The position numbers and the translations under genes are program-made. The notes under the pieces are model-generated. The model saw only the letters and a list, made by a program, of their open reading frames with translations, made no database searches and was not told where the DNA came from. Of a DNA stretch of 64,000 bases, positions 18,256 through 39,692 are shown in pieces. How positions within the stretch are numbered: position 1 is the first letter of the stretch; every line of letters begins with the position of its first letter. The DNA is from Azospirillum thermophilum (GTDB taxonomy: Bacteria; Pseudomonadota; Alphaproteobacteria; Azospirillales; Azospirillaceae), in assembly GCF_003130795.1 (NCBI RefSeq), contig NZ_CP029356.1:124001-188000 (forward strand), given 5' to 3'.

Positions 18256-19422
18256 ATGGAATACGCAGACAAGAGCGAGGTGCTTCCCATCGAGGGATCG
18301 CCGCCCCCGTCCGGCCGTACCCGGCGTCCCAGCGACTTCATCTGCTTCTCGCATCTGCGATGGGGCTTCGTGCATCAGCGTCCGCAACATTTGATGGAAC
18401 GCTTCGCCCGGGAGTTCCGCCTGTTCTATGTCGAGGAACCCGTCGAGGCCGACATCGACGAGCCGGGGATGGTGGTCTATGACGGGTCGGCGGGCATCAG
18501 GCTGCTGGTGCCGCAGCTCCCGCGCGGGATGAGCGGCCGGGAGGCGGAGGTGGCGCAGCGCCGGGTGCTGGAGCGCAAATTCGCCGAACTGGGCATCCGC
18601 AACCCCGTGCTGTGGTACTACAATCCGATGGCGCCGCAGTTCGCCGACCATCTGGCGGCGGCGGCGGTGGTCTACGACTGCATGGACGAGCTGTCGGCCT
18701 TCCGCGGCGCCCCGCCCGAGCTGGTGGAGCGCGAGCGCGGGCTTCTGCAGCGCGCGGACGTCGTCTTCACCGGCGGCTACAGCCTCTACGAGGCGAAGCG
18801 CGACCGCCACCCGAACGTCCATCCCTTCCCCAGCAGCGTCGACGTCAAGCACTTCGCCGCGGCGCGCGACGGCCGCGAGCCGGCCGACCAGGCGGATCTG
18901 CCTCGGCCGCGTCTCGGCTTCTACGGCGTGATCGACGAGAGGCTGGACCTGGAACTGCTGGACGCCGCCGCGCGTCTGCGGCCGGACTGGCAGTTCGTCA
19001 TCCTGGGGCCGGTGGTGAAGATCGACCCCGCCGCCCTGCCGCAGGCGCCGAACATCAGCTATCCCGGCATGCGCGGCTATGGCGAGCTGCCCGCCTATCT
19101 CGCCGGCTGGGACGTGGCGCTGATGCCCTTCGCGCTCAACGAGTCCACCCGCTTCATCAGCCCGACCAAGACGCCGGAGTATCTGGCGGCGGGCTGCCCG
19201 GTCGTCTCCACCCCGATCACCGACGTGGTGCGGACCTACGGCGACAGCGGGCTGGTGTGGATCGCCGACACGCCGGAGGCCTTCGTCGCCGCCTGCGAAG
19301 AGGCCCTGAAGGTCGACCGCCATGCGCCGGACTGGCTCGGCGCCATCGACCGCGTCCTGGGCGACATGTCCTGGGACACCACCTGGGGCCGCATGAAGAC
19401 CCTGGTCGACAGCGCCTGCTGA
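18256..19422 (+). CDS. Glycosyltransferase, GT-B fold (group 1-like)
   Basis: A 388-residue cytoplasmic glycosyltransferase. After a polar N-terminus comes DFICFSHLRWGFVHQRPQHL, the start of the N-terminal Rossmann domain seen in a subfamily of group 1 transferases. VVYDCMDELSAF follows, then the C-terminal domain with LGFYGVIDERLDLELLD, DWQFVILGPV and the donor-binding region [16 protein letters not shown] with Glu at the expected nucleotide-sugar contact. ATG 18256 has GGAG 6 bp upstream. It heads a run of carbohydrate genes and is followed 115 bp later by the first glycosidase-reductase fusion. Donor and acceptor are unknown; the mutase gene (glf) in the same island makes UDP-galactofuranose one candidate donor. 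Confidence 0.88.
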   Translation: MEYADKSEVLPIEGSPPPSGRTRRPSDFICFSHLRWGFVHQRPQHLMERFAREFRLFYVEEPVEADIDEPGMVVYDGSAGIRLLVPQLPRGMSGREAEVAQRRVLERKFAELGIRNPVLWYYNPMAPQFADHLAAAAVVYDCMDELSAFRGAPPELVERERGLLQRADVVFTGGYSLYEAKRDRHPNVHPFPSSVDVKHFAAARDGREPADQADLPRPRLGFYGVIDERLDLELLDAAARLRPDWQFVILGPVVKIDPAALPQAPNISYPGMRGYGELPAYLAGWDVALMPFALNESTRFISPTKTPEYLAAGCPVVSTPITDVVRTYGDSGLVWIADTPEAFVAACEEALKVDRHAPDWLGAIDRVLGDMSWDTTWGRMKTLVDSAC

Positions 19423-19537
19423 ACGGGACCGCCCGCAATACTCCGGTCCGCGGCGGCCGGCCGGTGGGGACGACCCCCGCCTGCCGGCGCCATGACCACG
19501 CGCCCGTTCCGCGCAAGGCGGACAGCAAGGGGAGCCG

Positions 19538-21820
19538 ATGCCTGACATCGAAATCTGGGGCGGTCTCGAATGCACGGTCGCGCGCATCCGGGACGCCTAC
19601 GTCGACCAGACCTTGCTGAACGGGCATGAGCATCGGCCGGAGGATCTGGACCGCTTCGCCTCGCTGGGGATCACGCGGCTGCGCTATCCGGTGCTGTGGG
19701 AGCGGGTGGCGCCGGACGGGTTCGACCGCGCCGACTGGCGCTGGACGGACGAGCGGCTGACCCGCCTGCGCGATCTCGGCATCAAGCCGATCGTCACGCT
19801 GGTCCACCATGGCAGCGGCCCGCGCAACACCAGCCTGCTGGACCCGGACTTCGCCACCGGCGTCGGCCGCTTCGCCGGAATGGTGGCCGGGCGCTACCCC
19901 TGGGTCGACGCCTACACGCCGGTGAACGAACCGCTGACCACCGCGCGGTTCAGCGGGCTCTACGGCCTGTGGTACCCGCATCTGCGGGACGAGGCGGCCT
20001 TCCTGCGCATGCTGGTGACCGAGACGCGGGCGACGCGGTTGGCCATGGCGGCGATCCGCCGGGTCAACCCGGACGCCCTGCTGATCCAGACCGAGGATCT
20101 GGCGAAGATCCACGCGACCCCGCCGCTGGCCGCCGCCGCGGAGATGCAGAACCAGCGACGCTGGCTGAGCCTGGACCTGCTGACCGGGCGCGTCACGCCG
20201 GACCATCCGTTCTGGCCGCGGTTGCGCGATGCCGGGCTGGCCGAGGAGATCGCCGGCTTCGTCGCGGATCCCTGCCCGCCGGACATCATCGGCTTCAACC
20301 ACTACCTGTCGAGCGAACGCTGCCTCGACCACCGGGTCCACCGCTACCGCGGTCTCGGCCGGTCGCGCGACGGCAGCAACGGCCACATCGACGTCGAGGC
20401 CGTCTCGCTGATGGCGGAAGGGCCGACCGGCCCCGGCGGGCTGCTGCGAGAGGCCTGGGAGCGCTACCGCCTGCCGATGGCGGTGACGGAGGTGCACAAC
20501 GGCTCGACCCGCGAGGACCAGCTCCGCTGGCTGTACGAGGTCTGGCAGGACGCCCGGTCGCTCGCCGCGGAGGGGGTGGATTTGCGGGCCGTCACGGTGT
20601 GGTCGCTGCTGGGCAGCTACGACTGGGACCAGTTGCTGACGCGCTGCGTCGGCTATTACGAGGCCGGGCCGTTCGACGTGCGGGCGCCGGTGCCGCGCGA
20701 GACGGCGCTGGCCCGCATGGTCCGCCGGATGGCGGACGGCGGTGCGGTCGATCATCCGGTGCTGGACGGCCCCGGACGCTGGCACCGTGCCGACCGGTTC
20801 CGCTGGCGCCCGGTGCGCTGCCGCCCGGACGTGCCGGACCGCCCCATCCCCTCCTGGCACCGCAGGCCGGAGGACGCGCGGCGGCTGCTGATCGTCGGCG
20901 CGACGGGAACGCTGGGCCGCGCCTTCGCCCGGGTCGCGGCCCGGCGCGGCCTCGCCCACCATCCGGCGGGCCGCGGCGAGGTGGACATCGCCGACCCGGC
21001 CTCGGTACAGGCGGCGCTGCTCCGCCACCGGCCCTGGGCGGTGATCAACGCCGCCGGCTTCGTCCGGGTGGACGAGGCGGAGGCGGACGGCCGGCGCTGC
21101 CGGCGCGAGAACGCCGAGGGGCCGGCCGTGCTGGCCGCCGCCTGCGCCGCGGCGGGCATCCCGCTGGTCGGCTTCTCCTCCGACCTCGTGTTCGACGGGA
21201 CGAAGCGGGCGTCCTATGTGGAGGAAGACGCGGTTTGTCCGCTGAACGTCTATGGCGAGACGAAGGTCGCGGCCGAGCGGGCCATCGCGGCGACGGAGCG
21301 CGGGCTGGTCGTCCGCACCGGCGCCTTCTTCGGTCCCTGGGACGATCACAACTTCATCACCACCGCGCTCCGCCGGATGGAGCAGGGTCTGCCCGTCGCC
21401 GCGGCGGAGGACGTCACCGTCTCCCCCACCTATGTGCCCGATCTGGTCAACACGGTGCTGGAGCTGCTGATCGACGGCGAGCGGGGGATCTGGCACCTCG
21501 CCAGCGCCGGGGCCGTCACCTGGGCCGAACTGGCGCGGGAGGCGGCGCGGCGGGCCGGGCTGGATGCCGGGCTGGTCCGCGCGCTGCCGGGGGAGGAGCT
21601 GGGCTGGGCGGCGCGGCGGCCGCGCTACAGCGTGCTGGGCAGCGGGCGCGCGTCGCTGATGCCGCCGCTCGACGACGCGCTGGGCGCCTTCTTCCACGCA
21701 TGGCGGGAGGAACGGCGGCGGAGCGCCGCGCCGGCCTCCGCCGTGCTGCCGCCGCCGGGACCGGAGACCCGCTCGGCCCCGACGCCGTCGGTGTCGCCGG
21801 CCTGCGACGCGGCGGAGTGA
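19538..21820 (+). CDS. Fusion: family-1-type glycoside hydrolase + RmlD-type sugar-nucleotide reductase (copy 1)
   Basis: A 760-residue two-domain protein. Residues 1-410 form a clan GH-A barrel like family 1 glycosidases: RYPVLWERVAP, acid/base Glu131 in YTPVNEP and nucleophile Glu318 in VTEVHNGS. Residues 448-735 form an SDR-type RmlD domain: VGATGTLG nucleotide-binding loop, SSDLVFDG, and Tyr572/Lys576 in VYGETKVAAE, as in dTDP-4-dehydrorhamnose reductase. The C-terminus is low-complexity. There is no signal peptide, so it works in the cytoplasm. ATG 19538 has AAGGGGAG 7 bp upstream. A paralogue lies at 24928-27234 on the other strand. The enzyme pair implies both glycoside cleavage and reduction or epimerisation of a nucleotide sugar; the substrate is unknown. 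Confidence 0.9.
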   Translation: MPDIEIWGGLECTVARIRDAYVDQTLLNGHEHRPEDLDRFASLGITRLRYPVLWERVAPDGFDRADWRWTDERLTRLRDLGIKPIVTLVHHGSGPRNTSLLDPDFATGVGRFAGMVAGRYPWVDAYTPVNEPLTTARFSGLYGLWYPHLRDEAAFLRMLVTETRATRLAMAAIRRVNPDALLIQTEDLAKIHATPPLAAAAEMQNQRRWLSLDLLTGRVTPDHPFWPRLRDAGLAEEIAGFVADPCPPDIIGFNHYLSSERCLDHRVHRYRGLGRSRDGSNGHIDVEAVSLMAEGPTGPGGLLREAWERYRLPMAVTEVHNGSTREDQLRWLYEVWQDARSLAAEGVDLRAVTVWSLLGSYDWDQLLTRCVGYYEAGPFDVRAPVPRETALARMVRRMADGGAVDHPVLDGPGRWHRADRFRWRPVRCRPDVPDRPIPSWHRRPEDARRLLIVGATGTLGRAFARVAARRGLAHHPAGRGEVDIADPASVQAALLRHRPWAVINAAGFVRVDEAEADGRRCRRENAEGPAVLAAACAAAGIPLVGFSSDLVFDGTKRASYVEEDAVCPLNVYGETKVAAERAIAATERGLVVRTGAFFGPWDDHNFITTALRRMEQGLPVAAAEDVTVSPTYVPDLVNTVLELLIDGERGIWHLASAGAVTWAELAREAARRAGLDAGLVRALPGEELGWAARRPRYSVLGSGRASLMPPLDDALGAFFHAWREERRRSAAPASAVLPPPGPETRSAPTPSVSPACDAAE

Positions 21821-21924
21821 CTTTCCCCGGACATATCTTGCGTGGGCTTGGCCATACACCGGCCGTTAACCATAATTCGCAATGATGCCCCGGCAAGAAA
21901 AACGCCGGAAAAACAAGGTGCGTC

Positions 21925-22053
21925 ATGCGGATCGCTCTCCTGATCTTCGTCCTTCTGGCCGGGCTCGGCATTGCCGCGGGCAACCTGCTGCAGGGCCGGG
22001 AGCCGGCCGGCCCCTCGACCCTGACGCTCACGCGGTCGTCCGACATGCTATGA
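21925..22053 (+). CDS. Small single-span membrane protein, 42 residues (hypothetical)
   Basis: A short frame beginning ATG with AAGGTG 6 bp upstream. The product starts MRIALLIFVLLAGLGIAAG, a strong hydrophobic segment after a single Arg, and continues with a 23-residue polar tail ending SSDML. It could be a small membrane protein or a secreted peptide with an uncleaved leader. Its stop overlaps the 3' end of the convergent MFS gene by 6 bp. Upstream, TTAACCATAATTCGC gives AT-rich promoter-like sequence. No family is recognised; support is the ribosome-binding site plus the clean membrane segment. Confidence 0.5.
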   Translation: MRIALLIFVLLAGLGIAAGNLLQGREPAGPSTLTLTRSSDML

Positions 22054-23541
22054 CGGGGAGCCGGCGGCGCCCGGCTCCTCCGGCTTGCGGTCGACCAGCC
22101 GGCCGAAGGGGAAGGTCGTCGCCAGACGCAGCCCGCCCACCGAGGACAGGCTGCGCATGCTGCGCCTGACCTCCAGCGCGAAGAGCTGGACCACCCGGCG
22201 CTCGCTGACCTCCTCCTCCTCGCGGACCAGCGTCAGGGCATGCAGCGCGTAGAGCCCGACCGCGAAGGAGAAGGCGAAGAAGAACTCCCACCGGCGCAGC
22301 CGCATGGCGAGCGCCTCGGCCTCCACCCCCGGGGCCGCCCAGTGGATGACCACCGACAGCTCCCGCGCGCCGAACCAGTCGGCGAAAAGGCCGCTGACGA
22401 TCGGCGCGATGCCGGCGGCCAGCGAGCCGAACAGGCTGACCGAGGCGAGATAGGCCGTCCCCTGCCCCTCCGGCGCCAGCTTCAGGCCGATGTTGCCGGT
22501 GGCGAGCCCGATGCCGCCGGTGGCGGCCCCCATCACGGCATGGATCAGCGCCAGCAGGGGCAGCGTCAGCATGTGGCGCTCCGGCAGGGCGGTGAAGGGC
22601 AGCGCCAGGACGCAGCCGAGGAAGACCGGGGCCGCCAGCGCCAGGATCGCCTTGTTCGACAGCCGGTCCGACAGCCGCCCCCACTGCCGCAGCGTGATCG
22701 CGTTCGCCGTCTGGCTGATCGCCCAGAGGATCACCACCACCCCCAGGTCGAATTCGAGCTGGAGCAGCAGATAGGTGGTGAGGAACGGGGCGGACAGGTT
22801 CACCGCGAAGTTCCAGCTCGTCATGAAGATGATGAGCCGGCGGAAGTTGGTGTCGTGCAGCGGCACCCGCAGCATCGGCAGGAAGGGCTGGCGCTCGTAG
22901 CTGCCGCGCATCACCGGCTCCGGCACCCGGGTCAGCCAGTAGGAGCTGACGAAGCCGGCGAGACCGGCGACGGCGAAGACCAGGGAATAGCTGTAGATCT
23001 TCTCGCCGAAGGGCCAATGGTCCACCAGCAGCCCGCCGGCGAGCCCGGTCACCAGCGCCAGCGTCGTCGCCCAGAACAGGCGGCGGGCGAAGAACTGGCC
23101 CAGCCCCTCCCTGGGCAGCAGGTCGTGCATCCAGGAGTTCCAGGAACAGGCGCTGACGGCGCCCAGCACCGCGACCGCCATCTGCCCGAGGATCAGCAGC
23201 CCCAGCGCGGTCGGGCGGTCCTCCAGGAAGGGCAGCAGCGCGCAGGCCAGGATGACGATGCGGGCGAGCGTGATGGCGATGACGGAGATCTTGCGCCTCT
23301 GCCGCACCCGCTGCACGAGCCCGATCGCCGGGATCTGCGCGAGCTGGCCGAAGAAGGGGATGGCGGCCAGCGCCCCGATGGCGAGCGGCCCGGCGTCCAG
23401 CGCCAGGGCGAAGCCCACCAGGATGATCCCGCCGGACAGGGCGCCGACGACATTCGCCCAGGCTCCGTCATAGACGAGGGCGCGCTTGCCCTGCTCGACG
23501 TCGGACGGGGTGACCAGGGGGTCGGGAGCGAGCGACTTCAT
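22048..23541 (-). CDS. Major facilitator superfamily transporter
   Basis: A 497-residue integral membrane protein with about 12 helices. Visible segments include GALSGGIILVGFALALDAG, IGALAAIPFFGQLAQIPAIG followed by the basic loop RVRQRRK (MFS motif A region), and SWNSWMHDLLP. A cytoplasmic C-terminal tail (EVSERRVVQLFALEVRRSMR) is longer than usual. The start at ATG 23541 fits the conserved N-terminus but has no clear ribosome-binding site; a TTG at 23610 is possible. It lies just downstream of the ATPase-less ABC protein gene on the same strand (95-bp gap). In this island it may move a sugar, oligosaccharide or glycoside; direction is not evident. Confidence 0.85.
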   Translation of the reverse strand: MKSLAPDPLVTPSDVEQGKRALVYDGAWANVVGALSGGIILVGFALALDAGPLAIGALAAIPFFGQLAQIPAIGLVQRVRQRRKISVIAITLARIVILACALLPFLEDRPTALGLLILGQMAVAVLGAVSACSWNSWMHDLLPREGLGQFFARRLFWATTLALVTGLAGGLLVDHWPFGEKIYSYSLVFAVAGLAGFVSSYWLTRVPEPVMRGSYERQPFLPMLRVPLHDTNFRRLIIFMTSWNFAVNLSAPFLTTYLLLQLEFDLGVVVILWAISQTANAITLRQWGRLSDRLSNKAILALAAPVFLGCVLALPFTALPERHMLTLPLLALIHAVMGAATGGIGLATGNIGLKLAPEGQGTAYLASVSLFGSLAAGIAPIVSGLFADWFGARELSVVIHWAAPGVEAEALAMRLRRWEFFFAFSFAVGLYALHALTLVREEEEVSERRVVQLFALEVRRSMRSLSSVGGLRLATTFPFGRLVDRKPEEPGAAGSPS

Positions 23542-23636
23542 GTGCGGGAACGCCGGCTGTTGCGTGGCGTAAGCACTTCGATCCGCGGCGGCGGGAAGTC
23601 CACTCCTCAACCTGAGTATGCCGTTCGCGCCGGAGC

Positions 23637-24689
23637 CTACTCCGCGGCGACCGCCAGCGCCGGCACCGGGCAGGGCACCGCATCCTCAGCGCCCGCCGCA
23701 GCCCCGCCGGCCGCCGCTTCGTCGTCCGGCGGACCATAGGCGTCGAGTTCGGCGAAGAAGGCCTTGATGGCGGGGATCGTCTCCATCCACTGCCTCTGCA
23801 GCTCGATCCCGGCGCCGACGCAGTTCATCAGGTAGGTCGACCAGCTCAGCGAGGCGAGGAAGTAGCCGAGCGAATAGACCCCGCTGTCGACATACCAGGC
23901 GCCGACCCCCCAACTGCACAGGTTGGTCACGTTGACGATCAGGCCACGGCCGAAGTTGAAGGCGAGGAAGCGCCGCCCGGTGAGGGCGCCGAAGCCGGCG
24001 AAGGCGGCGTAGCGCTCGTCATAGTCGGCGACCGCCTGCCGCTCCTTGCTCTCGACGATCAGGCCGAGCAGGTTGCGGAAGACATGGGTGTGGACCCGCT
24101 GCCGCTCGTAGTCGAGTTCCTGCAGCCGGGTATAGAGCGGGCGCAGGACCTTGTTCAGGTAGACGGTCGCCAGGATGTCGAGCGTGCCGCCGACGATGGC
24201 GATCAGCCCGATCAGCGGGTACCACCAGAGCAGAAGCCCGAGCGTGACCAGACCCGGCAGGATCACCGGAATGGCGACGCGGACGACGGCATTGACGAAC
24301 TGCATCAGCACCAGTTCGCCCCGCTCGATCACCGCCTGCTGCATGGCGGTGTCCCGCCCCTCGGGCGACAGGCGGGGACGCAGGACCCGGTGCAGGACGC
24401 TGACGCCGAGATGGCGGGGGCCGTCATACTGGAAGCGGGCGAGGTCCACGCGGCCGGTCAGGTAGGGAAGGACGTTGCCGTGGCAGACCCAGAAGAGGAA
24501 GGCGGTGGCGGTCATCGCGTAGATGGCGTCGAGCGTCTGGCGCTGCGCCATGGCGTCGATGACCCGGCCGCCGAACAGGGGCACCAGAAGGTCGCCCGCC
24601 TTCTGCAGCATCATCAGAAGCGCGATCAGGGCGAGCTGACGCCAGAAGGGGCGGAACAGGCTCATCACTCGGCGGACGGTGGTCAGCAT
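23637..24689 (-). CDS. ABC transporter transmembrane protein lacking an ATP-binding domain
   Basis: A 350-residue protein corresponding to an ABC exporter type-1 membrane domain: six helices from FWRQLALIALLMMLQKAGD to LGYFLASLSWSTYLMNCV, with coupling-helix-like loops between. The sequence stops at about residue 325 where the nucleotide-binding domain would begin and ends in a Gly/Ala-rich tail (EAAAGGAAAGAED). No Walker A, LSGGQ or Walker B is present, and none follows in any frame before the MFS gene. It therefore needs a partner ATPase; the complete ABC exporter at 30376-32184 in the same island is the obvious candidate for a heterodimer. ATG 24689 has AGGGA upstream. Confidence 0.85.
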   Translation of the reverse strand: MLTTVRRVMSLFRPFWRQLALIALLMMLQKAGDLLVPLFGGRVIDAMAQRQTLDAIYAMTATAFLFWVCHGNVLPYLTGRVDLARFQYDGPRHLGVSVLHRVLRPRLSPEGRDTAMQQAVIERGELVLMQFVNAVVRVAIPVILPGLVTLGLLLWWYPLIGLIAIVGGTLDILATVYLNKVLRPLYTRLQELDYERQRVHTHVFRNLLGLIVESKERQAVADYDERYAAFAGFGALTGRRFLAFNFGRGLIVNVTNLCSWGVGAWYVDSGVYSLGYFLASLSWSTYLMNCVGAGIELQRQWMETIPAIKAFFAELDAYGPPDDEAAAGGAAAGAEDAVPCPVPALAVAAE

Positions 24690-24927: not shown

Positions 24928-27234
24928 TCAGACAGCCGATACCGCCTCCGGCACGCAGACCTCCGCCGCGTCGTGCGGCACGGGTCCGCGGGCGGCGAGG
25001 AAGCGGTGCAGGGCATGCTCGACGGAGGGCAGCCCCGCCCCGCGGGCGGAGGCGAGGACGCTGTAGGCCGGCCGCCGGGCGACCCAGCCGAGATCGGCGG
25101 CAGGCACGCCGAGCACCCGGTCGGGGTTCAGCCCGGCGCCGCGCACCGCGGCACGGGCGAATTCGGCCCAGGTGACGGCGCCGCCGTTGGCGAGGTGCCA
25201 GATCCCGCGCTCCCCGTCGATCAGCAGGTCGAGCGCGACGTTGACGAGGTCCGGCAGGTAGGTCGGCGAGACGGTGACGTCGCAGGCCGCCGAGAAGAAG
25301 CGGCCGCCGGCGACGGTACGGATGGCGCGGGCGGCGGGGCTGCGGTCGTCCCACGGGCCGAACAGGGCGCCGCTGCGGACCATCAGCGCGGCCGGACAGC
25401 GGTCGAGAACCGCCAGTTCGGCCTCCCGCTTGCTGCGCCCGTAGCCGTTGAGCGGGCGGGCGTCGTCCTGCTCCCGATAGGGCGTCCGCTTCTCCCCGTC
25501 GAACACCAGATGGGTGGAGAAGCCCAGCAGGGGCAGGCCCGCCGCGGCACAGGCACCGGCAAGGATGCTCGCGGCGCGGACGTTGTCGCGCTGCGCCCGG
25601 GCGGGACACAGTTCGGCCTCGTCGACGCGGGCCAGTCCGGCAGCGTTGACCACGGCCCAGGGGCGCATGCGCTCCAGCACCTCCGCCACGGCGCCGGCAT
25701 CGGTCAGGTCCAGCTCGGCCCGCGTCAGCCGCACATGGGGCAGACCGCGCACCATGCACAGCCGCGCCACGGCCTCGGCCAGGGTGCCGCCGCCCCCGGC
25801 GATCAGCAGGCGGCGCGGCGCGGCATCCGGCGGGGTCCAGCCATTGCGGGTGATGACGTAGGGGGAACTGCGCACGGGCGCCCAGTGGAAACGGTCCTCG
25901 CGCCGCCACCAGCCCGGCCCGTCGAAGACCGGATGGTCCGCATCGCCCGTCCGCGCCAGATCGCGCAGCAGCCCGGCCAGCGCGGTCGGGCGGATCCGCG
26001 GCCCGCGCACGTCGAACACGCCGGACTCGTAGAACCCGTCGCGGCGGGTCATCAGGCTGTTCCAGTCATAGCTGCCGAGAAGCGCCCAGGCCGTCACCGC
26101 CCGGACATCCACCCCCCGTTCCCGCAGACGCCGCGCGCCGTCCCAGGCTTCCTTGACCCAGCGGAGCTGCTCCTCCCGGCTGGAGCCGTTGTGGACCTCG
26201 GTGGCGGCGACGGGCAGGCGGTAGCGGGTCCAGGCCTCCTCCATCAGCGTCTCCAACCCGTCGACCCCCTCGGCCAGGACGCGGACGGCCTCCAGGTCGA
26301 CGTGGCGCTCGCCGCCCTCCGCCGTCGGCCGAACGCCGGGATACCGGCGCACCCGCTCGTCGAGGAAGCGTTCGCTGGTCAGGTAATGGTCGATGCCCAG
26401 GATGTCCGGCGGGCAGGGATCGGCGGCCAGCTCGTCCAGATCGCGCTCCAGACCGGCCTCGGCCAGCCAGGAGCGCAGCGGATGGTCGCGGCCGACGCGG
26501 CCGGCCAGCAGATCGAAGGTCAGCCAGCGCCGCTGGTTCTCGTGCTCCGCCTGCCGGGCCATGTGCGGCGTGCCGTGGACCTTGCCCGGATCCTCCGTCT
26601 GCACCAGCTTCGCCGCCGGGTTCACGGCGCGGATCGCCGCCATCGCCAGCCGGGTCGCCTGGATCTGGTTGACCAGGATGCGGCGGAAGACGCCCTGGTC
26701 GCGGGCATGCGGATGCCAGAATCCGTAGAGGGCGCAGAAACGCGCCGTCGTCAGCGGCTCGTTGATCGGGGTGTAAAGCTCCAGCCAGGGATAGCGGCGG
26801 GCGACCGCGGCGGCATAGGCGGCGAATTTCGCCGGAAAGTCCGGCCGCGTCAGATCCGTGCCGCGCGGCCCGTTGCCGTGATGCAGCAGCGTCGCGATCG
26901 GCTTGACCCCAAGATCGCGCAGCCGCCCCAGCCGTTCGTCCGTCCAGCGCCAGTCGGCGTCGCGCAGACCGCGCGGCGCCACCCGTTCCCACAGCACCGG
27001 ATAGCGGATCGCCCTGATCCCCAGCTCCGCGAAGGCGTCGAGGTCTCCCGGCCGGTCCTGGTGGCCGCTGAGCCGCGTCTGGTCGACGCCGCCGCCGCGC
27101 AGCCGGACGACCGAGCATTCCACACCACCCCACAGTTCCAGGGGCGGGCGCTCGGGCGTTGCCGGATGAGTCGGGACCGGCGTGGCGGCGACCGGCATGG
27201 CGGCGACCGGCGTGGTGTCTGCGCGTGACGGCAA
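24928..27234 (-). CDS. Fusion: family-1-type glycoside hydrolase + RmlD-type reductase (copy 2)
   Basis: A 768-residue paralogue of the protein at 19538-21820, with the same domain order. The barrel has acid/base Glu159 (YTPINEP) and nucleophile Glu346 (ATEVHNGS). The SDR domain begins near residue 474 with LLIAGGGGTLAEA, a less canonical glycine loop than copy 1, and has STHLVFDG and Tyr598/Lys602 (YGRSK). The start is TTG 27234: it has a strong Shine-Dalgarno (CAGGAGG) 7 bp upstream. The ATG at 27198 has none, and the frame above the TTG shows no conserved sequence. There is no signal peptide. It is divergent from the GH2 gene across a 306-bp regulatory region. The weaker nucleotide loop suggests altered cofactor use or loss of reductase activity. 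Confidence 0.88.
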   Translation of the reverse strand: MPSRADTTPVAAMPVAATPVPTHPATPERPPLELWGGVECSVVRLRGGGVDQTRLSGHQDRPGDLDAFAELGIRAIRYPVLWERVAPRGLRDADWRWTDERLGRLRDLGVKPIATLLHHGNGPRGTDLTRPDFPAKFAAYAAAVARRYPWLELYTPINEPLTTARFCALYGFWHPHARDQGVFRRILVNQIQATRLAMAAIRAVNPAAKLVQTEDPGKVHGTPHMARQAEHENQRRWLTFDLLAGRVGRDHPLRSWLAEAGLERDLDELAADPCPPDILGIDHYLTSERFLDERVRRYPGVRPTAEGGERHVDLEAVRVLAEGVDGLETLMEEAWTRYRLPVAATEVHNGSSREEQLRWVKEAWDGARRLRERGVDVRAVTAWALLGSYDWNSLMTRRDGFYESGVFDVRGPRIRPTALAGLLRDLARTGDADHPVFDGPGWWRREDRFHWAPVRSSPYVITRNGWTPPDAAPRRLLIAGGGGTLAEAVARLCMVRGLPHVRLTRAELDLTDAGAVAEVLERMRPWAVVNAAGLARVDEAELCPARAQRDNVRAASILAGACAAAGLPLLGFSTHLVFDGEKRTPYREQDDARPLNGYGRSKREAELAVLDRCPAALMVRSGALFGPWDDRSPAARAIRTVAGGRFFSAACDVTVSPTYLPDLVNVALDLLIDGERGIWHLANGGAVTWAEFARAAVRGAGLNPDRVLGVPAADLGWVARRPAYSVLASARGAGLPSVEHALHRFLAARGPVPHDAAEVCVPEAVSAV

Positions 27235-27540
27235 GGCCCGTCCTCCTGAACCGTTTCGGCGGGGCCGTAGGTGGCACCCCGTCCGGTCTGGCGCGGACTT
27301 GGTTAGCAGGAGATTAAGAAGACCTCGCTGGTCACAGCAGCCCAACTTTGTCACACCTCAAGTTCTTTCCCGTTTTTGTCACACCACCCGGAAGTCCCGT
27401 AGGAGCGGGCTTTTTGCCGGCACCCCTTTTTAGCGGGCTGTACGGAGTAATCCGGGTTATCTTTTGTTAACCATGACGATCAAACCTCCGCTCACCTTTT
27501 CGGGGTCCTCCGCATCGAGGGCCGCGGCGCAACCGAAGAC
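27235..27540. promoter_or_regulatory. Divergent regulatory region with paired direct repeats
   Basis: This lies between glycosidase-reductase copy 2 (minus) and the GH2 gene (plus). TTTGTCACACC occurs twice in the same orientation, at 27347-27357 and 27375-27385, 28 bp start to start. That is close to an integral number of helical turns, as expected for cooperative binding of a regulator. An imperfect hairpin with CCCG/CGGG followed by TTTTT (27391-27415) points toward the GH2 gene and could be a weak attenuator. AGCGGGCT is also repeated (27404 and 27432). No regulator gene is adjacent. Confidence 0.5.
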
Positions 27541-30300: not shown

Positions 30301-30323
30301 CCCTCTCCGCCTCATGACGCGAA

Positions 30324-30364
30324 ACGCGGCGGGGCGCTCCGGGGCGCTCCGCCGCGTCTCTTTT
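30324..30364 (+). terminator. Rho-independent terminator after the GH2 gene
   Basis: A 9-bp perfect stem ACGCGGCGG (30324-30332) and CCGCCGCGT (30349-30357) is followed by CTCTTTT. It sits 24 bp after the GH2 stop and before the convergent ABC exporter stop, so it could act for the plus strand and partly for both. Confidence 0.8.
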
Positions 30365-30375
30365 GCGGTGCGGCG

Positions 30376-32184
30376 TTACTCCGCCGCGCGCAGGCCGCGG
30401 TCCAGCGCCTCGTCCATCGAGAAGCCCTCCGCCTGCAGGCGCCACAGGGCATCGAAGGTGCCGCCGCGCCGACGCAGCTCGGCCGGGTGGCCGTCCTCGA
30501 CGATGCGGCCGTCGATCAGGACGACGATGCGGTCGAAGCCCGACAGGGTCGACAGCCGGTGCGCCACCGCCAGCACGGTGCGGCCGTGCATCAGGTCCTT
30601 CAGCGCGCGCTGGATCTCGATCTCGCTCTCGGTGTCGAGGGCGGAGGTCGCCTCGTCCAGGATCAGGATGGGCGCGTCCTTCAGGAAGGCGCGGGCGATG
30701 CCGATGCGCTGGCGCTGGCCGCCCGACAGCTTCACCCCGCGCTCGCCGACCAGCGTGTCGTAGCCCTGCGGCAGCTCGCGGATGAAATCGTCGCAGTAGG
30801 CGGCACGGGCGGCGGCGCGCACCTCCTCGTCGGTGGCGTCGGGGCGGCCGTAGCGGATATTCTCCAGGATCGAGCGGTGGAACAGCGAGATCTCCTGCGG
30901 GACGGTGGCGATGGCCGACCGCAGGCTCTCCTGGTCGATCGCGGAGATGCACTGGCCGTCGACCAGGACGCGGCCCTCCTGCACGTCGTCCAGGCGCTGC
31001 AGCAGGCTGACCAGGGTCGATTTGCCGGCGCCGGACGGGCCGACGATGCCGATGCGCTGGCCGGCCGGAATGTGCAGCGACAGGGTGCGGAAGACCTGCC
31101 GGCCGTCGGCGTAGGCGAAGCCGACGCCCTCGAAGTCGATCGCCCCGCCGAGCCCGATCAGCGACTGCGCGCCCGGCCGGTCGGCCACCGCATGGGGCTG
31201 GCCGATCACCCGCAGCGTCTCGGCGATCTGGCCGAAATGCTGGGTTGTGCCGACCAGCGCGAAGGCGAGGTCGCGGGAGCCGTGCAGGATGCGGAAGGTC
31301 AGCGCGCTGACCATCACCACGTCGCCCGGGCTGATCCGGCCGGACACCCACAGCGAGACCGCCCAGACCAGCATGCCGCCGGCCATCACCCACAGGCAGA
31401 GGTCGTGGACGACGCGGGTCTTCTCCAGATAGAGCCAGCTCCGCCGCTGGGCCGCGGCTTCCGACGCGAACTTGGCGGCCAGCCGGTCGCGCTCGCGCCG
31501 GCGGGCGGAGAAGGCCTGCACCGCCCAGACGTTCGACACCACGTCCACCAGCTCGCCCGCCACGTAGGAGGCCTTGTCGGCATAGCTGCGGTGGAGCGGC
31601 CGGCCGCGCACGCCGATCAGCGCGATGGCGCTGGCGACCACCGTCACGAAGACCACCAGCGCCGCCGCCATCCGCCAGTCCACCGTCGTCAGCACCAGCA
31701 CGGCGCCGATGAAGTCGGTGATCGGCGGCAGGATGTTCCAGGTGAAGGTGCTGATGAGCGCGCCGGACGCCCCGGCCGTCGCGGTGATGCGGTTGCCGAG
31801 CGAGCCGGAGAAATGCTCGGAGAAGTACCGCATGGAATGGCCCGTCAGGTGCTGGAACAGGTCGAGCCTGATGTCCACGCCGACGCCGACCACCGTCCGG
31901 CACCCCAGCCAGCCGCCCAGCCGCCACAGCAGGTTCTCCACCCCGATCAGCACGACGAAGAGGGTCAGCGGCCCCCAGACGATCGCGGCGTCGCGCTCCG
32001 GCGCCGCCATGGCGTCGACCAGCAGCTTCATGCCGTACTGGACGGCGACGGCGCAGGCGGCGGCCCCGATGACCAGGGCCAGCAGCCCGCCGAAATGCCC
32101 CGGCCAGCGCCGGACATAGCGCAGGAAGAAGGGAATCGGACGCTGCGGAAACGGCGCGTCGGATGTCCGATGCTCGCAAGCCAT
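30376..32184 (-). CDS. ABC exporter, fused membrane and ATP-binding domains
   Basis: A half-transporter of 602 residues. Residues 15-310 form a type-1 exporter membrane domain with six helices (FGGLLALVIGAAACAVAVQ, LTLFVVLIGVENLLW). Residues 340-580 form the ATPase with Walker A GPSGAGKST, signature LSGGQRQR, Walker B ILILDEAT and switch His in VLAVAHRLSTL. Such proteins export lipids, glycolipids, peptides or cyclic glucans as dimers. It may be a homodimer or pair with the ATPase-less protein at 23637-24689. It lies 24 bp downstream of the clan GH-A glycosidase gene and is likely in one operon with that and glf. ATG 32184 has GAGG 9 bp upstream. Confidence 0.93.
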   Translation of the reverse strand: MACEHRTSDAPFPQRPIPFFLRYVRRWPGHFGGLLALVIGAAACAVAVQYGMKLLVDAMAAPERDAAIVWGPLTLFVVLIGVENLLWRLGGWLGCRTVVGVGVDIRLDLFQHLTGHSMRYFSEHFSGSLGNRITATAGASGALISTFTWNILPPITDFIGAVLVLTTVDWRMAAALVVFVTVVASAIALIGVRGRPLHRSYADKASYVAGELVDVVSNVWAVQAFSARRRERDRLAAKFASEAAAQRRSWLYLEKTRVVHDLCLWVMAGGMLVWAVSLWVSGRISPGDVVMVSALTFRILHGSRDLAFALVGTTQHFGQIAETLRVIGQPHAVADRPGAQSLIGLGGAIDFEGVGFAYADGRQVFRTLSLHIPAGQRIGIVGPSGAGKSTLVSLLQRLDDVQEGRVLVDGQCISAIDQESLRSAIATVPQEISLFHRSILENIRYGRPDATDEEVRAAARAAYCDDFIRELPQGYDTLVGERGVKLSGGQRQRIGIARAFLKDAPILILDEATSALDTESEIEIQRALKDLMHGRTVLAVAHRLSTLSGFDRIVVLIDGRIVEDGHPAELRRRGGTFDALWRLQAEGFSMDEALDRGLRAAE

Positions 32185-32208
32185 GGCGAAGATGCCTCGT
32201 TGGATTGG

Positions 32209-33363
32209 TCAGGCGACGCGCGCCGCCCGCTGGCCGAACTCCCGGTCGAGACGCCGGTCGAACAGCCGCTGCCAGCGGTCGAGCGTGTCGGCCAGCGGCC
32301 GGTGGACGGGGCGGCCGCCGGTCTCGGGAAAGCCGAGCAGCCCCACGGGGCAGTGCCGGTCGTTGGTCCATCCGGGGTAGTCGAGGATCGGGTAGAGGCA
32401 GATGCCCTCGACCGGGATGCCGGCCTCCATGGCCGCCAGCACCTCGCCCGCCACATAGTCGAGCCAGGGGGAGCGGGCGTCGCCCTCCGCCCCCGTCTCG
32501 GCCACCAGGATGGGCCGCCGGAAGCGCTGCCACACGTCGGCGAGGATGTCGCGGAACGGCCTGTAGCGCGGGTCCTCCCGCCCGATCGTGCCGCCGCCGA
32601 GGAACCACTGGTTGTCGGAGTAGTAGTTGACCCCGATGACGTCCAGCAGCTCCGGGCGGCCGCCGAGGCCGGGCCACAGCTCGCCGGCCGTCATGTCCCA
32701 GCCCTGGTACTGGGCGCGGGTGTAGGCCGCCGCCTCCGTCGCGTCGTCCGGGCGGTCGGGATGGGCGGCCACGTTGATGACCGGGTCGACATGCACGAAG
32801 CGGGCGCGCGGGTCGACCGCCCGCACCGCCCCGATTCCGGCGATCGCTGCACGGACGAGCTGGTGCTTCAGCTCGAAGCCGCGGCCGGTGGCGCAGGGGT
32901 TCATCATCCCGCGGTCGCCGCCGGCCCAGGACCAGTAGGCGATCTCGTTGACCGGGCAGAAGACCGGCACATCGTCCGTCTCCTCGCGCAGCAGCCGCGT
33001 CACGGCGGCGGCGAAGCGGGCGAAGCGGTCGACGAACTGCGGGCGCCAGATGTCGATGTCGTCCGGGTGGCCATAGTGGCAGAGGTCCCAGACGACCTGC
33101 ACCCCCGCCTCCCGCGCCGCGTGGACCATGGGAAGCAGGCTCGACCAGTCATAGCGGCCGGGGCTGGTCTCGATCAGGTGCCAGCGCACGCCGTCGCGCA
33201 CGCTGCCGATCCCGTGGCGCAGCATCGCCCGATAGTCCTGCGCCGCGGCGCGGCCGTGTCCGGTCGCCTCGATCAGGTCGAGGCGCCGGCCGTCGTCGCG
33301 CCGGTGGGTGGAGCATTCGAAGCCGCCCAGGAAAAAGCTCTGGAACAACGTCGGCGTATGCAT
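32209..33363 (-). CDS. Clan GH-A glycoside hydrolase (beta-glucosidase-like)
   Basis: A 384-residue barrel glycosidase. It starts FFLGGFECSTHR, similar to the first strand of the fusion proteins in this island. Visible motifs are SVRDGVRWHLIE, the putative acid/base Glu140 in CPVNEIAYWSW and the nucleophile Glu289 in LVAETGAEG. It lacks the reductase domain. There is no signal peptide, so it is cytoplasmic. ATG 33363 has AAGGAAG 5 bp upstream. It sits between glf (83-bp gap) and the ABC exporter (24-bp gap), suggesting one operon glf, glycosidase, exporter. The exact family number and sugar are not determinable by eye. Confidence 0.85.
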   Translation of the reverse strand: MHTPTLFQSFFLGGFECSTHRRDDGRRLDLIEATGHGRAAAQDYRAMLRHGIGSVRDGVRWHLIETSPGRYDWSSLLPMVHAAREAGVQVVWDLCHYGHPDDIDIWRPQFVDRFARFAAAVTRLLREETDDVPVFCPVNEIAYWSWAGGDRGMMNPCATGRGFELKHQLVRAAIAGIGAVRAVDPRARFVHVDPVINVAAHPDRPDDATEAAAYTRAQYQGWDMTAGELWPGLGGRPELLDVIGVNYYSDNQWFLGGGTIGREDPRYRPFRDILADVWQRFRRPILVAETGAEGDARSPWLDYVAGEVLAAMEAGIPVEGICLYPILDYPGWTNDRHCPVGLLGFPETGGRPVHRPLADTLDRWQRLFDRRLDREFGQRAARVA

Positions 33364-33446
33364 CCGTCTTCCTTCCGGTCGTTGGTGCGGATGATGTCCG
33401 TCGGGTTCGTCTGTCGGGGGATCGTCTGTCGGGAAAGGGCCGCCGG

Positions 33447-34724
33447 CTATTCGGCGGCATCCACCCGCTTCTTCAGGGGCGTGCCCTGCATGAGGCCGGA
33501 GAATGCCTTCGCCGCTTCGGTCAGCGACCGGCCGCCGGTCTCGGCATGCAGGATGCGGTCGAAGAGCTTCAACGCCTGCGCCACCACCTGGTCCATGTTG
33601 TAGTAGCGGTAGGTCGCCAGCCGGCCGACGAAGTGGACGTTCGGCGTGGCGTCGGCCAGCGCCTGGTACTTGCGGTAGAGCTCCGCATTCTCGGGCTTGG
33701 GCACGGGATAGTAGGGGTCGCCCTCGGCGGAGGGGAACTCGTAGGTCAGGCTGGTCCGGGGATGCTGCTGGCCGGTCAGGTGCTTGTATTCGGTGATGCG
33801 CGTATAGGGCACATCCTCCGCCGGGTAGTTGACCACGGCCACCGGCTGGAACCGCTCCTGGTCGACCATCTCGTGACGGAACTTCAGGGACCGGTAGGGC
33901 AGCTTGCCGTAGCGGTAGTCGAAATACTCGTCCACCGGTCCGGTGAAGATCAGGTTGTCGTAGCGGACCTCGCGCTGGACCTCGCGGTAGTCGGTGTTCA
34001 GCATGATCTTGATGTTGGGATGGTCCAGCATGTTCTCGAACATGCGCGTGTAGCCGTGCAGCGGCATGTTCTGGAAGCTGTCGCCGAAATAGCGGTCGTC
34101 GTCGTTGGTCCGCGTCGGCACGCGCGACGTCACCGCCTTGTCGAGCTGCGACGGATCGAGGCCCCACTGCTTGCGGGTGTAGCCGCGGAAGAACTTCTCG
34201 TAGAGTTCCCGCCCGACCGCCCCGACCACCACATCCTCCGACGTGCGGATATCGGCCACCGGCTCGGCCCGCCCGGCGAGGAAGGCGGCGACGCCGGCCT
34301 CGTCCAGCTCCAGGCCATAAAGGGTATTCACCGTCCTGCGGTTGATCGGGATGGGGACGAGCTGCTGGTCGACATGGGCGAGCACCTTGTGCTCGTACGG
34401 GCGCCATCTGGTGAAGCGCGAAAGATACTCCGCGACCTGGGTCGAGTTGGTGTGGAAGATGTGCGGCCCGTAGCGGTGGATCAGCACCCCGTGGTCGTCG
34501 TAATGGTCGTAGGCGTTGCCGCCGATATGCGGGCGGCGGTCGATCAGGAGAACCCGCTTGCCCAGGCCCCGGGCCAGCCGCTCGGCCAGCACGCTGCCGG
34601 CGAATCCGGCCCCGACGATCAGGTAGTCGAAGCCGGCGCGCCCGCTCAGCGCGACGCCGTTGCGGACCCCGTGGAGGGGGGTGACCGCGGGCCCGCCCGC
34701 AGCACCGGTCATCACGTCACGCAT
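33447..34724 (-). CDS. glf: UDP-galactopyranose mutase
   Basis: A 425-residue FAD enzyme that interconverts UDP-galactopyranose and UDP-galactofuranose, supplying Galf for glycans. The FAD motif GAGFAG is at 38-43. LIDRRPHIGGNAYDHYDDHG, HRYGPHIFHTNS, PIPINRRTVN, GYTRKQWGLDP and VGRLATYRYYNMDQV are the family landmarks, the last including flavin and substrate contacts. The N-terminal 30 residues (MRDVMTGAAGG onwards) are an extension; ATG 34724 has AAAGGA 9 bp upstream. It is the first gene of a probable operon with the GH-A glycosidase and ABC exporter, which suggests that a galactofuranose-containing compound is made and exported. Confidence 0.96.
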   Translation of the reverse strand: MRDVMTGAAGGPAVTPLHGVRNGVALSGRAGFDYLIVGAGFAGSVLAERLARGLGKRVLLIDRRPHIGGNAYDHYDDHGVLIHRYGPHIFHTNSTQVAEYLSRFTRWRPYEHKVLAHVDQQLVPIPINRRTVNTLYGLELDEAGVAAFLAGRAEPVADIRTSEDVVVGAVGRELYEKFFRGYTRKQWGLDPSQLDKAVTSRVPTRTNDDDRYFGDSFQNMPLHGYTRMFENMLDHPNIKIMLNTDYREVQREVRYDNLIFTGPVDEYFDYRYGKLPYRSLKFRHEMVDQERFQPVAVVNYPAEDVPYTRITEYKHLTGQQHPRTSLTYEFPSAEGDPYYPVPKPENAELYRKYQALADATPNVHFVGRLATYRYYNMDQVVAQALKLFDRILHAETGGRSLTEAAKAFSGLMQGTPLKKRVDAAE

Positions 34725-35444
34725 TCGATCGGTCCTTTCATTCGGCCCCAGGTCGAACCCCAGGACTGGTCGTGGCAGTCGATTGCCGCCGCGGCCCGTC
34801 CAGGGGACGAGGACCACGCCGGCAGTGATCAGGTCGGGAAGCTCCGCCTTACAGAATCAGGGCGGTATTCGCATGGACCTCCTTGACGAAATCTCTCGCA
34901 CGACCAGCTATCATCATGCGTTCGGAGTACTTCATGCGCCACATCCCCACGATCCGATGACTTTCGAAAAATCAGATCATCCAGGCCTTGCCCGTCGTTC
35001 TGTGATTTGACGAACAAACCATCACGGCATTCTATTCCGAGGTCGGGGAACAGCGAAAATCCCCTCGGGTTCCCGTACTGTGCTGCCGAGATTTCGCTTC
35101 AAATCGATTGAGATACCAGCGGAGACGTCATTGGGAATGGGACAGCGAATCAGCCATTTTCATAGAGTTTGCAGACACTAAGACCCCCGGCCTCCAGCGC
35201 GTCGGTTTGACTGGAGAATTGCTTTGCGCTGCGGGCCCGAAGCGGCTTCTATTCTTCTGGCATATCACCAAGTCGGTAGCGGATCGCGCCGGCCGGCCGC
35301 GACAAAAATGGGATCGCGCCGGTTCCGGCGCTTTCGCCCTCCCACCTTTCGCGGAATCGACCGCCACGGCCGGCGATGGGAAGATCAGGCACGGGCAGCC
35401 GCGGTTTCCGGCCCCCCGCCCCGGCCATCAGGACAGGACGCAGA
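34725..35444. other. 720-bp divergent intergenic region, glf and galM
   Basis: Visibly less GC-rich than its surroundings, especially 34.86-35.25 kb. A 45-codon frame (ATG 34873 to 35010) is present but has no family match or ribosome-binding site I trust. I cannot assign promoters or operators here with confidence. Confidence 0.5.
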
Positions 35445-36368
35445 ATGCCGACCAATCCCGCCGCGCCGCGGCTGCCCGGCGTCGTCACCATCGCCGCCGG
35501 CCCCTTCACGCTCGACGTCGCGCCGCAGGTCGGCGGATCGATCGCCCGCTTCGCCGGCCTGTGGGACGGCCGACCGATCGACTGGCTGCGTCCCGCCAGC
35601 GCGGAGGCGATCGCCGACCGAAACCCGCTGGGCATGGCGAGCTTCCCGCTGATCCCCTACTGCAACCGGATCCGCGACGGGCATTTCACCTTCGACGGCG
35701 TCGAGGTGACCCTGCCGCAGAACTATGCCGCCTCGCGCCATGCCATCCACGGCGATGCCTGGCGGCGGCCCTGGACGGTGGCAAGCCACGGGGACTCCAC
35801 CCTCTCCCTCGCCTTCGAGCATGAGCCGGCGGCCTGGCCCTTCGCCTATTCGGCGGCACAGGTCTTCGAGCTGAGCGAGGCGGGATTGCAGGTGACGCTG
35901 GCGGTGACCAACCGCGGCGACCGGCCAATGCCGCTCGGCCTCGGCCATCACCCCTACTGGCCGCGCACACCGGAAACGACGATCACCGCCACGGTCGACG
36001 CGATCTGGTCCGCCGACGAGGAGGTGATGCCGACCGCGCTGGAGCGGAGCTGGGTGTGCGAGCGGCTCGCCACCGGCCTGAGGGTGAGCGACGCCGATCT
36101 CGACAACAACTTCACGGGCTGGGACCGCACCGCCACCGTCCGCTGGCCGGAGCGGAACGCCGCCATGCGCATGGTCGCGGACGCGCCGCTGGATTTCATG
36201 GTCGCCTATACGCCGTCCGCCTACGACTTCTTCTGCCTGGAGCCGGTCAGCAACTGCACGGACTGGCCGAACCTGACCCATCTCGGCCGGGAGAAGGTCG
36301 GCGGCATGGTGCTGGCCCCCGGGGAGAGCACGCAGGCGGCCTTCCGGCTGGAGCCCTGCCGGCCGTGA
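35445..36368 (+). CDS. Aldose 1-epimerase (mutarotase)
   Basis: GalM-family protein of 307 residues that interconverts alpha and beta anomers of free sugars such as galactose, arabinose or glucose. Visible motifs are FPLIPYCNRIRDGHF (arginine of the substrate site), SRHAIHGDAWRRPW (first catalytic His), PLGLGHHPYWPR (second catalytic His) and FCLEPVSNCTDWPN (catalytic Glu). ATG 35445 is preceded by AGGACAGGACGC; the upstream in-frame sequence is low-complexity. It is cytoplasmic, with no signal peptide. It could serve either the glycosidase island on the left or the arabinose pathway on the right. It is followed by a bidirectional-looking terminator. Confidence 0.9.
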   Translation: MPTNPAAPRLPGVVTIAAGPFTLDVAPQVGGSIARFAGLWDGRPIDWLRPASAEAIADRNPLGMASFPLIPYCNRIRDGHFTFDGVEVTLPQNYAASRHAIHGDAWRRPWTVASHGDSTLSLAFEHEPAAWPFAYSAAQVFELSEAGLQVTLAVTNRGDRPMPLGLGHHPYWPRTPETTITATVDAIWSADEEVMPTALERSWVCERLATGLRVSDADLDNNFTGWDRTATVRWPERNAAMRMVADAPLDFMVAYTPSAYDFFCLEPVSNCTDWPNLTHLGREKVGGMVLAPGESTQAAFRLEPCRP

Positions 36369-39676: not shown

Positions 39677-39692
39677 TCCGAGCCGCGCGAAA

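Follow-up and report, generated by a model that had tools for sequence, protein, structure and literature searches.

A conserved glycosyltransferase, UDP-galactopyranose mutase and GH1-fold glycosidase set within a carbohydrate island of Azospirillum thermophilum

The chemistry of galactofuranose (Galf) has been studied mostly in the surface polymers of pathogens, and bacterial Galf is known mainly from envelope polymers (PMC7278926, partial text). In the pam genes of Kingella kingae, glf, the gene of UDP-galactopyranose mutase (UGM), is combined with transferases acting on lipopolysaccharide (LPS) (PMC12269835, partial text), and in Deinococcus radiodurans dr_A0367 is named glf in an expression table (PMC7022480, partial text). 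Here we describe an island of about 18 kb (18256..36368) within a 64,000-nucleotide stretch of the 6.78 Mb genome of Azospirillum thermophilum, this whole stretch being referred to as the window. The island joins Glf, the mutase, to a glycosyltransferase (GT) and to glycosidases with the fold of glycoside hydrolase (GH) family 1, one of which stands alone (GHA) and two of which are fused to an RmlD-like reductase (GHR1 and GHR2, collectively GHR). GT and Glf, together with a GH1-fold glycosidase in the form of GHA or GHR, make up a conserved, little-noticed and widely shared core set. The island is therefore not an accident, yet it is not one indivisible pathway. A literature search, in which subscription journals were thinly covered, returned no description of a GT-Glf-GH1 module.

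Genes were called from open reading frames (ORFs) together with codon-position GC analysis, Pfam and NCBIfam. Every gene named in a preliminary description of this DNA, which had pictured a carbohydrate island with glycosidase-reductase fusions, a Galf supply and an odd pair of ATP-binding cassette (ABC) genes, is present where it had been placed. The reading frames of the listed genes are backed by codon-position GC, that of GHA by the frame profile. The core genes and the adjoining exporter gene are as follows.

18256..19422, + strand: GT, GT4-like glycosyltransferase, putative galactofuranosyltransferase, 388 aa (Pfam Glyco_trans_1_4)
19538..21820, + strand: GHR1, GH1-fold glycosidase (residues 1-405) followed by an RmlD-like short-chain dehydrogenase/reductase, SDR (residues 448-724)
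24928..27354, - strand: GHR2, second GH1-RmlD fusion (Pfam)
30376..32184, - strand: ABC, full MsbA/ChvA-like exporter, 602 aa (ABC_tran and ABC_membrane)
32209..33363, - strand: GHA, stand-alone GH1-fold glycosidase, 384 aa
33447..34817, - strand: Glf, UDP-galactopyranose mutase (TIGR00031, PF03275)

GHR2 probably begins some 70 codons downstream of the listed GTG, and Glf may start inside its called frame. The GHA gene is concealed within a longer frame of 732 aa that has no Pfam match, and its start at 33363 is preceded by a ribosome-binding-like stretch.

Co-occurrence, gene order and gene fusions

The preliminary description had proposed conserved synteny in other genomes as the check on its idea of a single system, which was to fall if the genes never co-occurred. 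They do co-occur. Among 299 Pseudomonadota genomes, the source genome included, glf was found in 35, GHA in 12, GT in 12 and GHR in 3, with the presence of GT set at E <= 1e-97, a cut-off picked after the gap in the scores had been seen (the next best match stood at 6.5e-42). All 12 genomes with GT also have glf, versus 23 of the 287 others (Fisher test, about 1e-12, phylogeny ignored), and all 12 have GHA or GHR, versus 1 of the 287 others (about 2e-20, phylogeny again ignored), so that the trio is complete in each. Eleven of them carry GHA, and the remaining one (G416) carries GHR. The genes are also close to one another: in the 11 genomes having GT, glf and GHA, GT lies less than 600 bases from glf in 9 and GHA less than 5 kb from glf in 10.

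GHR was followed in two further samples. At a cut-off of E <= 1e-60 it was present in 8 of 82 genomes of the Azospirillum family (44 of the genomes searched being other members of the same genus), and glf accompanies it in 8 of 8 versus 34 of the 74 others. A second set comprised 79 GHR loci, the best of 329, mostly from Oxalobacteraceae and some of them truncated by contig ends. Genomes behind 42 of these loci were chosen for a check of glf and 41 were examined, with glf present in 37; since 17 of these show glf within the GHR locus itself, the independent part of this count is the 24 genomes whose GHR locus shows none, of which 20 have glf. When the window proteins were compared with the loci, matches below 50 bits were dropped and locus gene counts were made at >=60 bits; clustering of neighbours took 46 of the 79 loci, and one further alignment of relatives took 62 of 119 listed rows.

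Two arrangements recur. In arrangement A, GT, Glf, GHA and ABC follow one another in this order on one strand, as they do in 14 of 20 regions, which were picked around matches and are thus non-random (18 of the 20 come from the Azospirillum family). No cluster besides these four recurs in more than 7 of the 20, neighbours not having been family-annotated. Twelve further regions, likewise picked around matches, include three with the same order (L170-L172) and one with GHA-ABC divergent from GT-Glf (L173), ABC adjoining GHA in 4 of the 12. The compact version in Azospirillum brasilense Sp7 (L162, plasmid p3) has GT and Glf fused. In arrangement B, GT, Glf and GHR lie within 10 kb, which is the case in 21 of the 79 loci. 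By their record titles these belong to seven phyla (Cyanobacteriota 7, Bacteroidota 5, Pseudomonadota 4, Acidobacteriota 2, and Gemmatimonadota, Actinomycetota and Chloroflexota 1 each), and GHR is likewise near GT-Glf in four of the 20 regions (L140-L143). The 21 arrangement-B loci hold no ABC relative above about 33% identity except in A. soli; this near-absence places the exporter with arrangement A, and only in some Pseudomonadota was an ABC gene found as a neighbour of the set.

The window combines A and B, with GT 14 kb from Glf and with GHR1, GHR2, a family 2 glycosidase (GH2), a major facilitator superfamily (MFS) transporter and an ABC half between them. In A. soli (L010) the order is GHR, mutarotase, GHA, ABC, GHR, ABC half, GT, Glf, GH2, galK, galT. 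The single system imagined in the preliminary description therefore stands as far as its core, which co-occurs, but the 18 kb bring together two or more conserved blocks, GT-Glf-GHA-ABC on the one hand and GHR with GH2 and galactose genes on the other, to which the MFS transporter and the ABC half are only locally linked.

Gene fusions tie the core together further. Ten of the 58 frames that match Glf carry GT and Glf as a single reading frame (the 58 include the window itself and some genomes twice), the holders being Cylindrospermum, Calothrix, a metagenome-assembled genome (MAG) of Gaiellaceae and seven Azospirillaceae, that is, Cyanobacteriota, Actinomycetota and Azospirillaceae. Annotated GT-Glf fusions measure 767 aa in A. 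brasilense Sp7 and 783 aa in Sinorhizobium meliloti. In Comamonas it is GHA that is fused to this GT (788 aa), with glf adjoining, and Acinetobacter venetianus has a GHA-GT fusion of 1242 aa with a third domain of FAD type. GHA is joined to another GT4 domain in S. meliloti, and a similar protein of 755 aa is found in A. larrymoorei. Such differing orders of fusion in separate lineages argue for one pathway.

Several neighbourhoods of these genes are worth recording. In S. meliloti RCAM1115 (L163, 5280-13143) the rhizobial version is made of three multi-domain proteins, namely GT-Glf, GT4-GFO/IDH-zinc dehydrogenase (1080 aa) and GT4-GHA. On plasmid P1 of Deinococcus gobiensis (L166, 8959-16261), GHA is fused to an acyl-CoA dehydrogenase-like domain near a PIG-L deacetylase, a methyltransferase, a GT2, the GT and glf, and a 'family 1 glycosylhydrolase' is found 8 kb from the fusion. 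Upstream of the GT-Glf gene of A. brasilense Sp7 (L162, 3398-5516) there are a Tat-signal protein and a GMC oxidoreductase, the gene of the latter being shared by 7 of the 20 regions.

Enzymes and transporters of the island

The two GHR proteins are 57% identical and exceed the gathering score of PF00232 (22.6) with 34.8 bits for GHR1 and 37.0 for GHR2; the 732-aa frame of GHA has no such match, although a few GHA relatives have one. The predicted fold of GHA is nonetheless that of the GH1 barrel, and a sequence search of the PDB returned no match for it at 0.01. Relatives were plentiful: the best 120 for GHR and the best 120 for GHA were listed, out of at least 8000 candidates and 6157 passing E 1e-3, respectively. 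When relatives of GHR below 500 bits were dropped, the glycosidase residues N130-E131 (acid/base) and E318 (nucleophile) were kept in 77 of 77 rows, and in GHA N139-E140 and E289 are invariant in 32 rows (31 of 119 listed relatives were taken). The SDR part of GHR has the motifs GxxGxxG and Y-x3-K of the RmlD-type active site, with G454, G457, Y572 and K576 invariant in the 77 rows and the third glycine in 73. By sequence and confident predicted folds, GHA and GHR look catalytically intact. The equivalog cut-off of TIGR01214 (224.05) is not reached by GHR1 (205.3 bits) or GHR2 (176.5 bits), so the reductase part is described as RmlD-like, and an assignment to RmlD of the rhamnose pathway was rejected on these scores. 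Judged by the fusion protein, the named locus nearest to the source genome belongs to Azospirillum sp. TSO22-1, at 72% identity. A recent duplication of GHR was also rejected: in the tree GHR1 is placed with a TSO22-1 protein, and GHR2 groups with a second TSO22-1 protein and an A. soli protein (loci L004 and L010). A plasmid of Microvirga VF16 (L168, 8449-10248) encodes, near sigma-factor, CBS and DUF488 genes, a GH1-like protein whose N-terminus is extended by about 185 residues.

Glf, the sole PF03275 match in the source genome, exceeds the cut-off of the NCBIfam equivalog TIGR00031 (398.3 versus 303.75 bits) and is assigned as a UDP-galactopyranose mutase at the level of the family. GT matches the TuaH model weakly (80.5 bits, under the cut-off of 550), with no match at 0.01 in a sequence search of the PDB. 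It is called a putative Galf-transferase mainly because the GT, Glf and GHA genes are joined in differing orders across lineages.

The remaining genes of the island are listed here.

22048..23610, - strand: MFS transporter (Pfam MFS_1)
23637..24689, - strand: ABCtm, transmembrane half of an ABC exporter without ATPase domain, 350 aa
27541..30300, + strand: GH2, furanosidase-like glycoside hydrolase of family 2, 919 aa
35376..36368, + strand: MUT, aldose 1-epimerase (mutarotase; PF01263, 141 bits)

The best solved relatives of GH2 are 7xyr (182.8 bits), 9j6n (177.7) and 9j6m (177.1), followed by 7sf2 (157.8) and 6ed2 (124.9). The structure 7XYR belongs to subfamily GH2_19 and the galactofuranosidase 9J6M of Streptomyces JHA19 to GH2_18, the two subfamilies forming group III, whose members act on furanoses, both galactofuranosides and arabinofuranosides (PMC12243196, partial text). 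The closest solved relatives of GH2 thus belong to group III. T574, a candidate for the threonine that stands in for the ring-stacking tryptophan in group III, aligns with a threonine in 9J6N/9J6M, 7XYR and the relatives, and the NE motif is intact wherever the frame of a relative covers it unbroken (in this alignment the L079 GH2 is fragmented and a number of other rows are truncated). By its sequence, GH2 is furanosidase-like and resembles the group that cleaves furanosides. With glf in the same island, this suggests that one island both produces UDP-Galf and, probably, cleaves Galf off again.

Elsewhere GH2 keeps company with genes of galactose recovery. Among the 79 GHR loci galK occurs in 10, GH2 in 9, galT in 8 and an M24 peptidase-like gene in 5. 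In Lysobacter segetis, galK-galT-GH2 is divergent from GT-Glf-GHR, and two cyanobacterial loci (L027, L029) have the order galT-M24-galK-PhyH-GH43-GT-Glf-GHR. The galT and galK of L029 exceed the NCBIfam cut-offs, and the galT of A. soli is just under its own (99.7 versus 102.1 bits). The M24 peptidase-like gene is found beside galK/galT or GH2 near the module in L009, L027, L029, L050, L077 and L179, its holders including cyanobacteria, Pelotalea and G416. In A. soli the mutarotase gene separates GHR from GHA, and in L139 it is a neighbour of GT.

No signal peptide had been noted on any of the four glycosidases, and reading of their N-termini, made without a predictor, agrees; for comparison, signal peptides occur in about 10% of GH2_19 (PMC12243196, partial text).

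The exporter finds its best NCBIfam match in MsbA_rel (384.8 bits, under the cut-off of 780.4) and is also under the cut-offs of MsbA_lipidA (352.9 versus 602) and chvA (283.5 versus 585.4). The odd ABC pair of the preliminary description is real, its short partner being a transmembrane-only half of conserved length. All 27 relatives of this half measure 338-364 aa, even though candidates of up to 1.75 times the query length were allowed, and a decayed gene was rejected on this ground. PF00664 (ABC_membrane) was matched by 13 of 25 aligned members (24 of the 27 relatives were taken), with no other family listed, and the half of the window is itself below the threshold. Its search of the PDB gave ATM1 only, weakly (E 0.008). 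ABC halves without an ATPase domain are therefore a conserved family, whose named members are alphaproteobacterial. The half adjoins GHR in L004 and L010, and the records suggest that 7 of the 27 relatives share contigs with GHRs among the best 120 listed. Two other regions, L141 and L146, also have the MFS gene close to a GHR gene.

Downstream of the mutarotase gene and an HflX gene there is a separate sugar operon (38252-48924, + strand), which begins with a ChvE-type binding protein (over its cut-off), an ATPase and a permease and continues with catabolic genes of the GFO/IDH/MocA, IlvD/EDD, SMP-30, DHDPS and aldehyde dehydrogenase types. It resembles the oxidative L-arabinose/D-galactose pathway of A. 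brasilense. Upstream of the island, at 10271-13337 on the + strand, the window encodes a pyruvate formate-lyase-like glycyl radical enzyme and its radical-SAM activase.

Proposed function and competing explanations

We lean, with slightly better than even confidence, toward an island that makes, moves and recycles a small glycoconjugate of Galf. Glf, as assigned by family, would convert UDP-galactopyranose to UDP-Galf, and GT, judging from the GT-Glf fusions, would move Galf onto an acceptor. For the acceptor, a lipid or some small soluble compound is probable, because no chain-starting transferase, flippase or polymerase is seen beside the set in the window. From family and neighbourhood, GHA, GHR1 and GHR2 may trim or transglycosylate the product, while the RmlD-like part would reduce a keto-sugar; as the GH1-fold enzymes look intact and belong to the core, their role is probably one in biosynthesis or quality control and not in the degradation of nutrients. 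Gene order suggests that the MsbA/ChvA-like exporter carries the product across the inner membrane. GH2 and the mutarotase could then release galactose, which relatives could route to galactokinase and GalT, and the source strain to the adjoining oxidative operon. The observation that the island has a single transferase and no domain of the Wzx/Wzy/Wza type is borne out among the 30 Pfam-scanned frames of the window (6.6-52.5 kb). An initiating transferase, Wzx/Wzy and Wzm/Wzt/Wza are all missing from these 30 frames, the remaining genome and the related loci not having been scanned. That the window shows no polymer machinery speaks for a small product, and the MsbA-like exporter leans toward a lipid one, while a polysaccharide locus was dropped as an explanation, no partner genes being seen in the window. 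As for the earlier proposal of a product made, edited or recycled in the cytoplasm, its Galf part gains support from the galactofuranosidase-like GH2 and the GT-Glf fusions, but the cytoplasmic processing is something we still infer.

A number of observations weigh against this account. Most genomes with glf in the 299-genome sample (23 of 35) are without this GT, so glf alone is no indicator of the module, and glf is missing from 4 of the 41 GHR genomes. No Massilia locus among the 79 has GT or glf at the 60-bit cut, although in glf regions of Massilia/Telluria a GT about 51% identical lies in the same 16 kb in 3 of 6 (L118, L119, L121). A. larrymoorei has GT and GHA with no Glf match in the 21 kb examined, and the sole exception in the 299 genomes, G300, has GHA (L180, 8248-9360, - strand) without a PF03275 match or a strong GT match. 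In the GHA-GT fusion of Acinetobacter, the FAD domain is matched by Amino_oxidase and not by PF03275. No close ABC relative stands beside the set in L149, in L174-L177 or in the plasmid records L163-L167 and L169, and conservation of the MFS transporter and the ABC half with the module is no more than local. On the side of recovery, group III of GH2 also includes arabinofuranosidases (PMC12243196, partial text) and an arabinose-type operon lies nearby. The mutarotase could also serve this arabinose/galactose operon, which weakens the idea of a single system. The source genome has no galK by a search that matched 10 of 14 control genomes, and no GalT match by a search without positive control; free galactose would thus need another route, for which the adjoining oxidative operon is a candidate.

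A bolder version of the proposal, which we put forward tentatively and hold to be rather unlikely, makes the set an undescribed, phylum-spanning module in which a retaining enzyme of the GH1 fold is part of synthesis, with GHA and GHR acting as transglycosidases or oxidoreductive editors before export. The product would be a Galf-glycoside such as a galactofuranosyl lipid, and GH-RmlD would be a new bifunctional sugar-editing enzyme. The role imagined for GHA and GHR can be likened to that of SFR2, a plant GH1 protein that remodels galactolipids under stress.

Unlikely, in our judgement, is the decoration of the envelope, in which Galf is added to an existing LPS, capsule or lipid-linked glycan with other genes elsewhere, the exporter flipping a lipid-linked intermediate as PglK and MsbA do and the GH1-fold enzymes serving as editing hydrolases. 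Envelope polymers are the main known home of bacterial Galf (PMC7278926, partial text), the ABC protein is MsbA-like, and the pam genes of K. kingae pair glf with transferases acting on LPS (PMC12269835, partial text). Set against these points, the 30 scanned frames hold no initiating transferase or Wzx/Wzy-type domain, no fifth cluster accompanies GT, Glf, GHA and ABC in more than 7 of the 20 regions (with neighbours lacking family annotation), and the trio of GT, Glf and a GH1-fold enzyme is also found in Deinococcus and in a MAG of Ktedonobacteria, which differ in their envelopes.

Improbable is a salvage island, where imported plant galactosides or arabinosides are dismantled and Glf and GT are bystanders. 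The MFS transporter and the ChvE-type ABC system would import, GH2, GHA and GHR would cut in the cytoplasm, and the mutarotase and oxidative pathway would burn the sugar. The lack of signal peptides on the glycosidases, the arabinofuranosidases in GH2 group III (PMC12243196, partial text) and the operon at 38252-48924, with its ChvE-type system and its arabinose/galactose-like oxidative set, all fit such a route. It is contradicted by the constancy of Glf and GT as partners of GHA (11 of 12 in the 299-genome sample) and their recurrence beside GHR, by GHA-GT fusions in other bacteria, which a purely catabolic island leaves unexplained, and by the exporter type of the ABC protein beside GHA. 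Least credible of all are two unrelated neighbours, the conserved GT-Glf-GHA-ABC operon having taken up, between GT and Glf, an independent GHR/GH2/MFS/ABC-half block with another function: the compact GT-Glf-GHA-ABC order in 14 of 20 regions, the 14 kb between GT and Glf in the window and the absence of GHR from 74 of 82 family genomes would suit it, but 21 of 79 loci, spread over seven phyla, have GHR in the vicinity of GT and Glf, and glf is present in 8 of 8 family genomes with GHR, which indicates that the block inserted here is part of a module of the same kind.

In eight phyla, the seven of arrangement B and Deinococcota, clusters and fusions link glf with a single transferase and an enzyme of the GH1 fold. 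The list of taxa (Massilia, Hymenobacter, Deinococcus, soil cyanobacteria, Azospirillum) suggests, as an impression, a role in dry or irradiated habitats. If the glycoconjugate proposal is true, large groups of proteins that currently go under the names 'family 1 glycosylhydrolase' or 'beta-glucosidase' would gain a function, a new Galf molecule would come to light and the idea of a retaining glycosidase as a core part of a synthetic pathway would be put to the test. The compact version in A. brasilense Sp7 makes the module testable.

Comparison with known systems

Like the island, pamABCDE of K. kingae has a UGM adjoining glycosyltransferases, with UDP-Galf as donor. It comprises four predicted transferases and the UGM, with no glycosidase and no exporter gene in the text available (PMC12269835, partial text), whereas the island has one transferase, core GH1-fold enzymes, an ABC exporter and a furanosidase-like GH2. 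The beta-D-galactofuranosidase of Streptomyces sp. JHA19 (9J6M, GH2_18), among the closest solved relatives of the GH2 of the window, shares with it the stretches RHIKV and DQ.Y.PDGI.T.P and the NE motif. However, about 80% of GH2_18 are secreted (PMC12243196, partial text), while the GH2 of the window is without signal peptide and adjacent to glf, and it measures 919 aa versus 612 aa in the PDB chain of the JHA19 enzyme.

The exporter shares its domain order with MsbA and ChvA-NdvA, which are its closest NCBIfam matches, yet it is under their curated cut-offs. The SDR part of the fusions, compared with RmlD (dTDP-4-dehydrorhamnose reductase), is under the equivalog cut-off and is fused behind a GH1 barrel. 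Each of these families is known; the conserved combination, the fusions and the GH1-fold enzyme as a core partner of UGM appear undescribed. To the GH1 members among the Foldseek rows listed, the enzymes of the window have at most 23% identity, and unlike the GH1 beta-glycosidases they sit in, or are fused to, a gene set for Galf synthesis.

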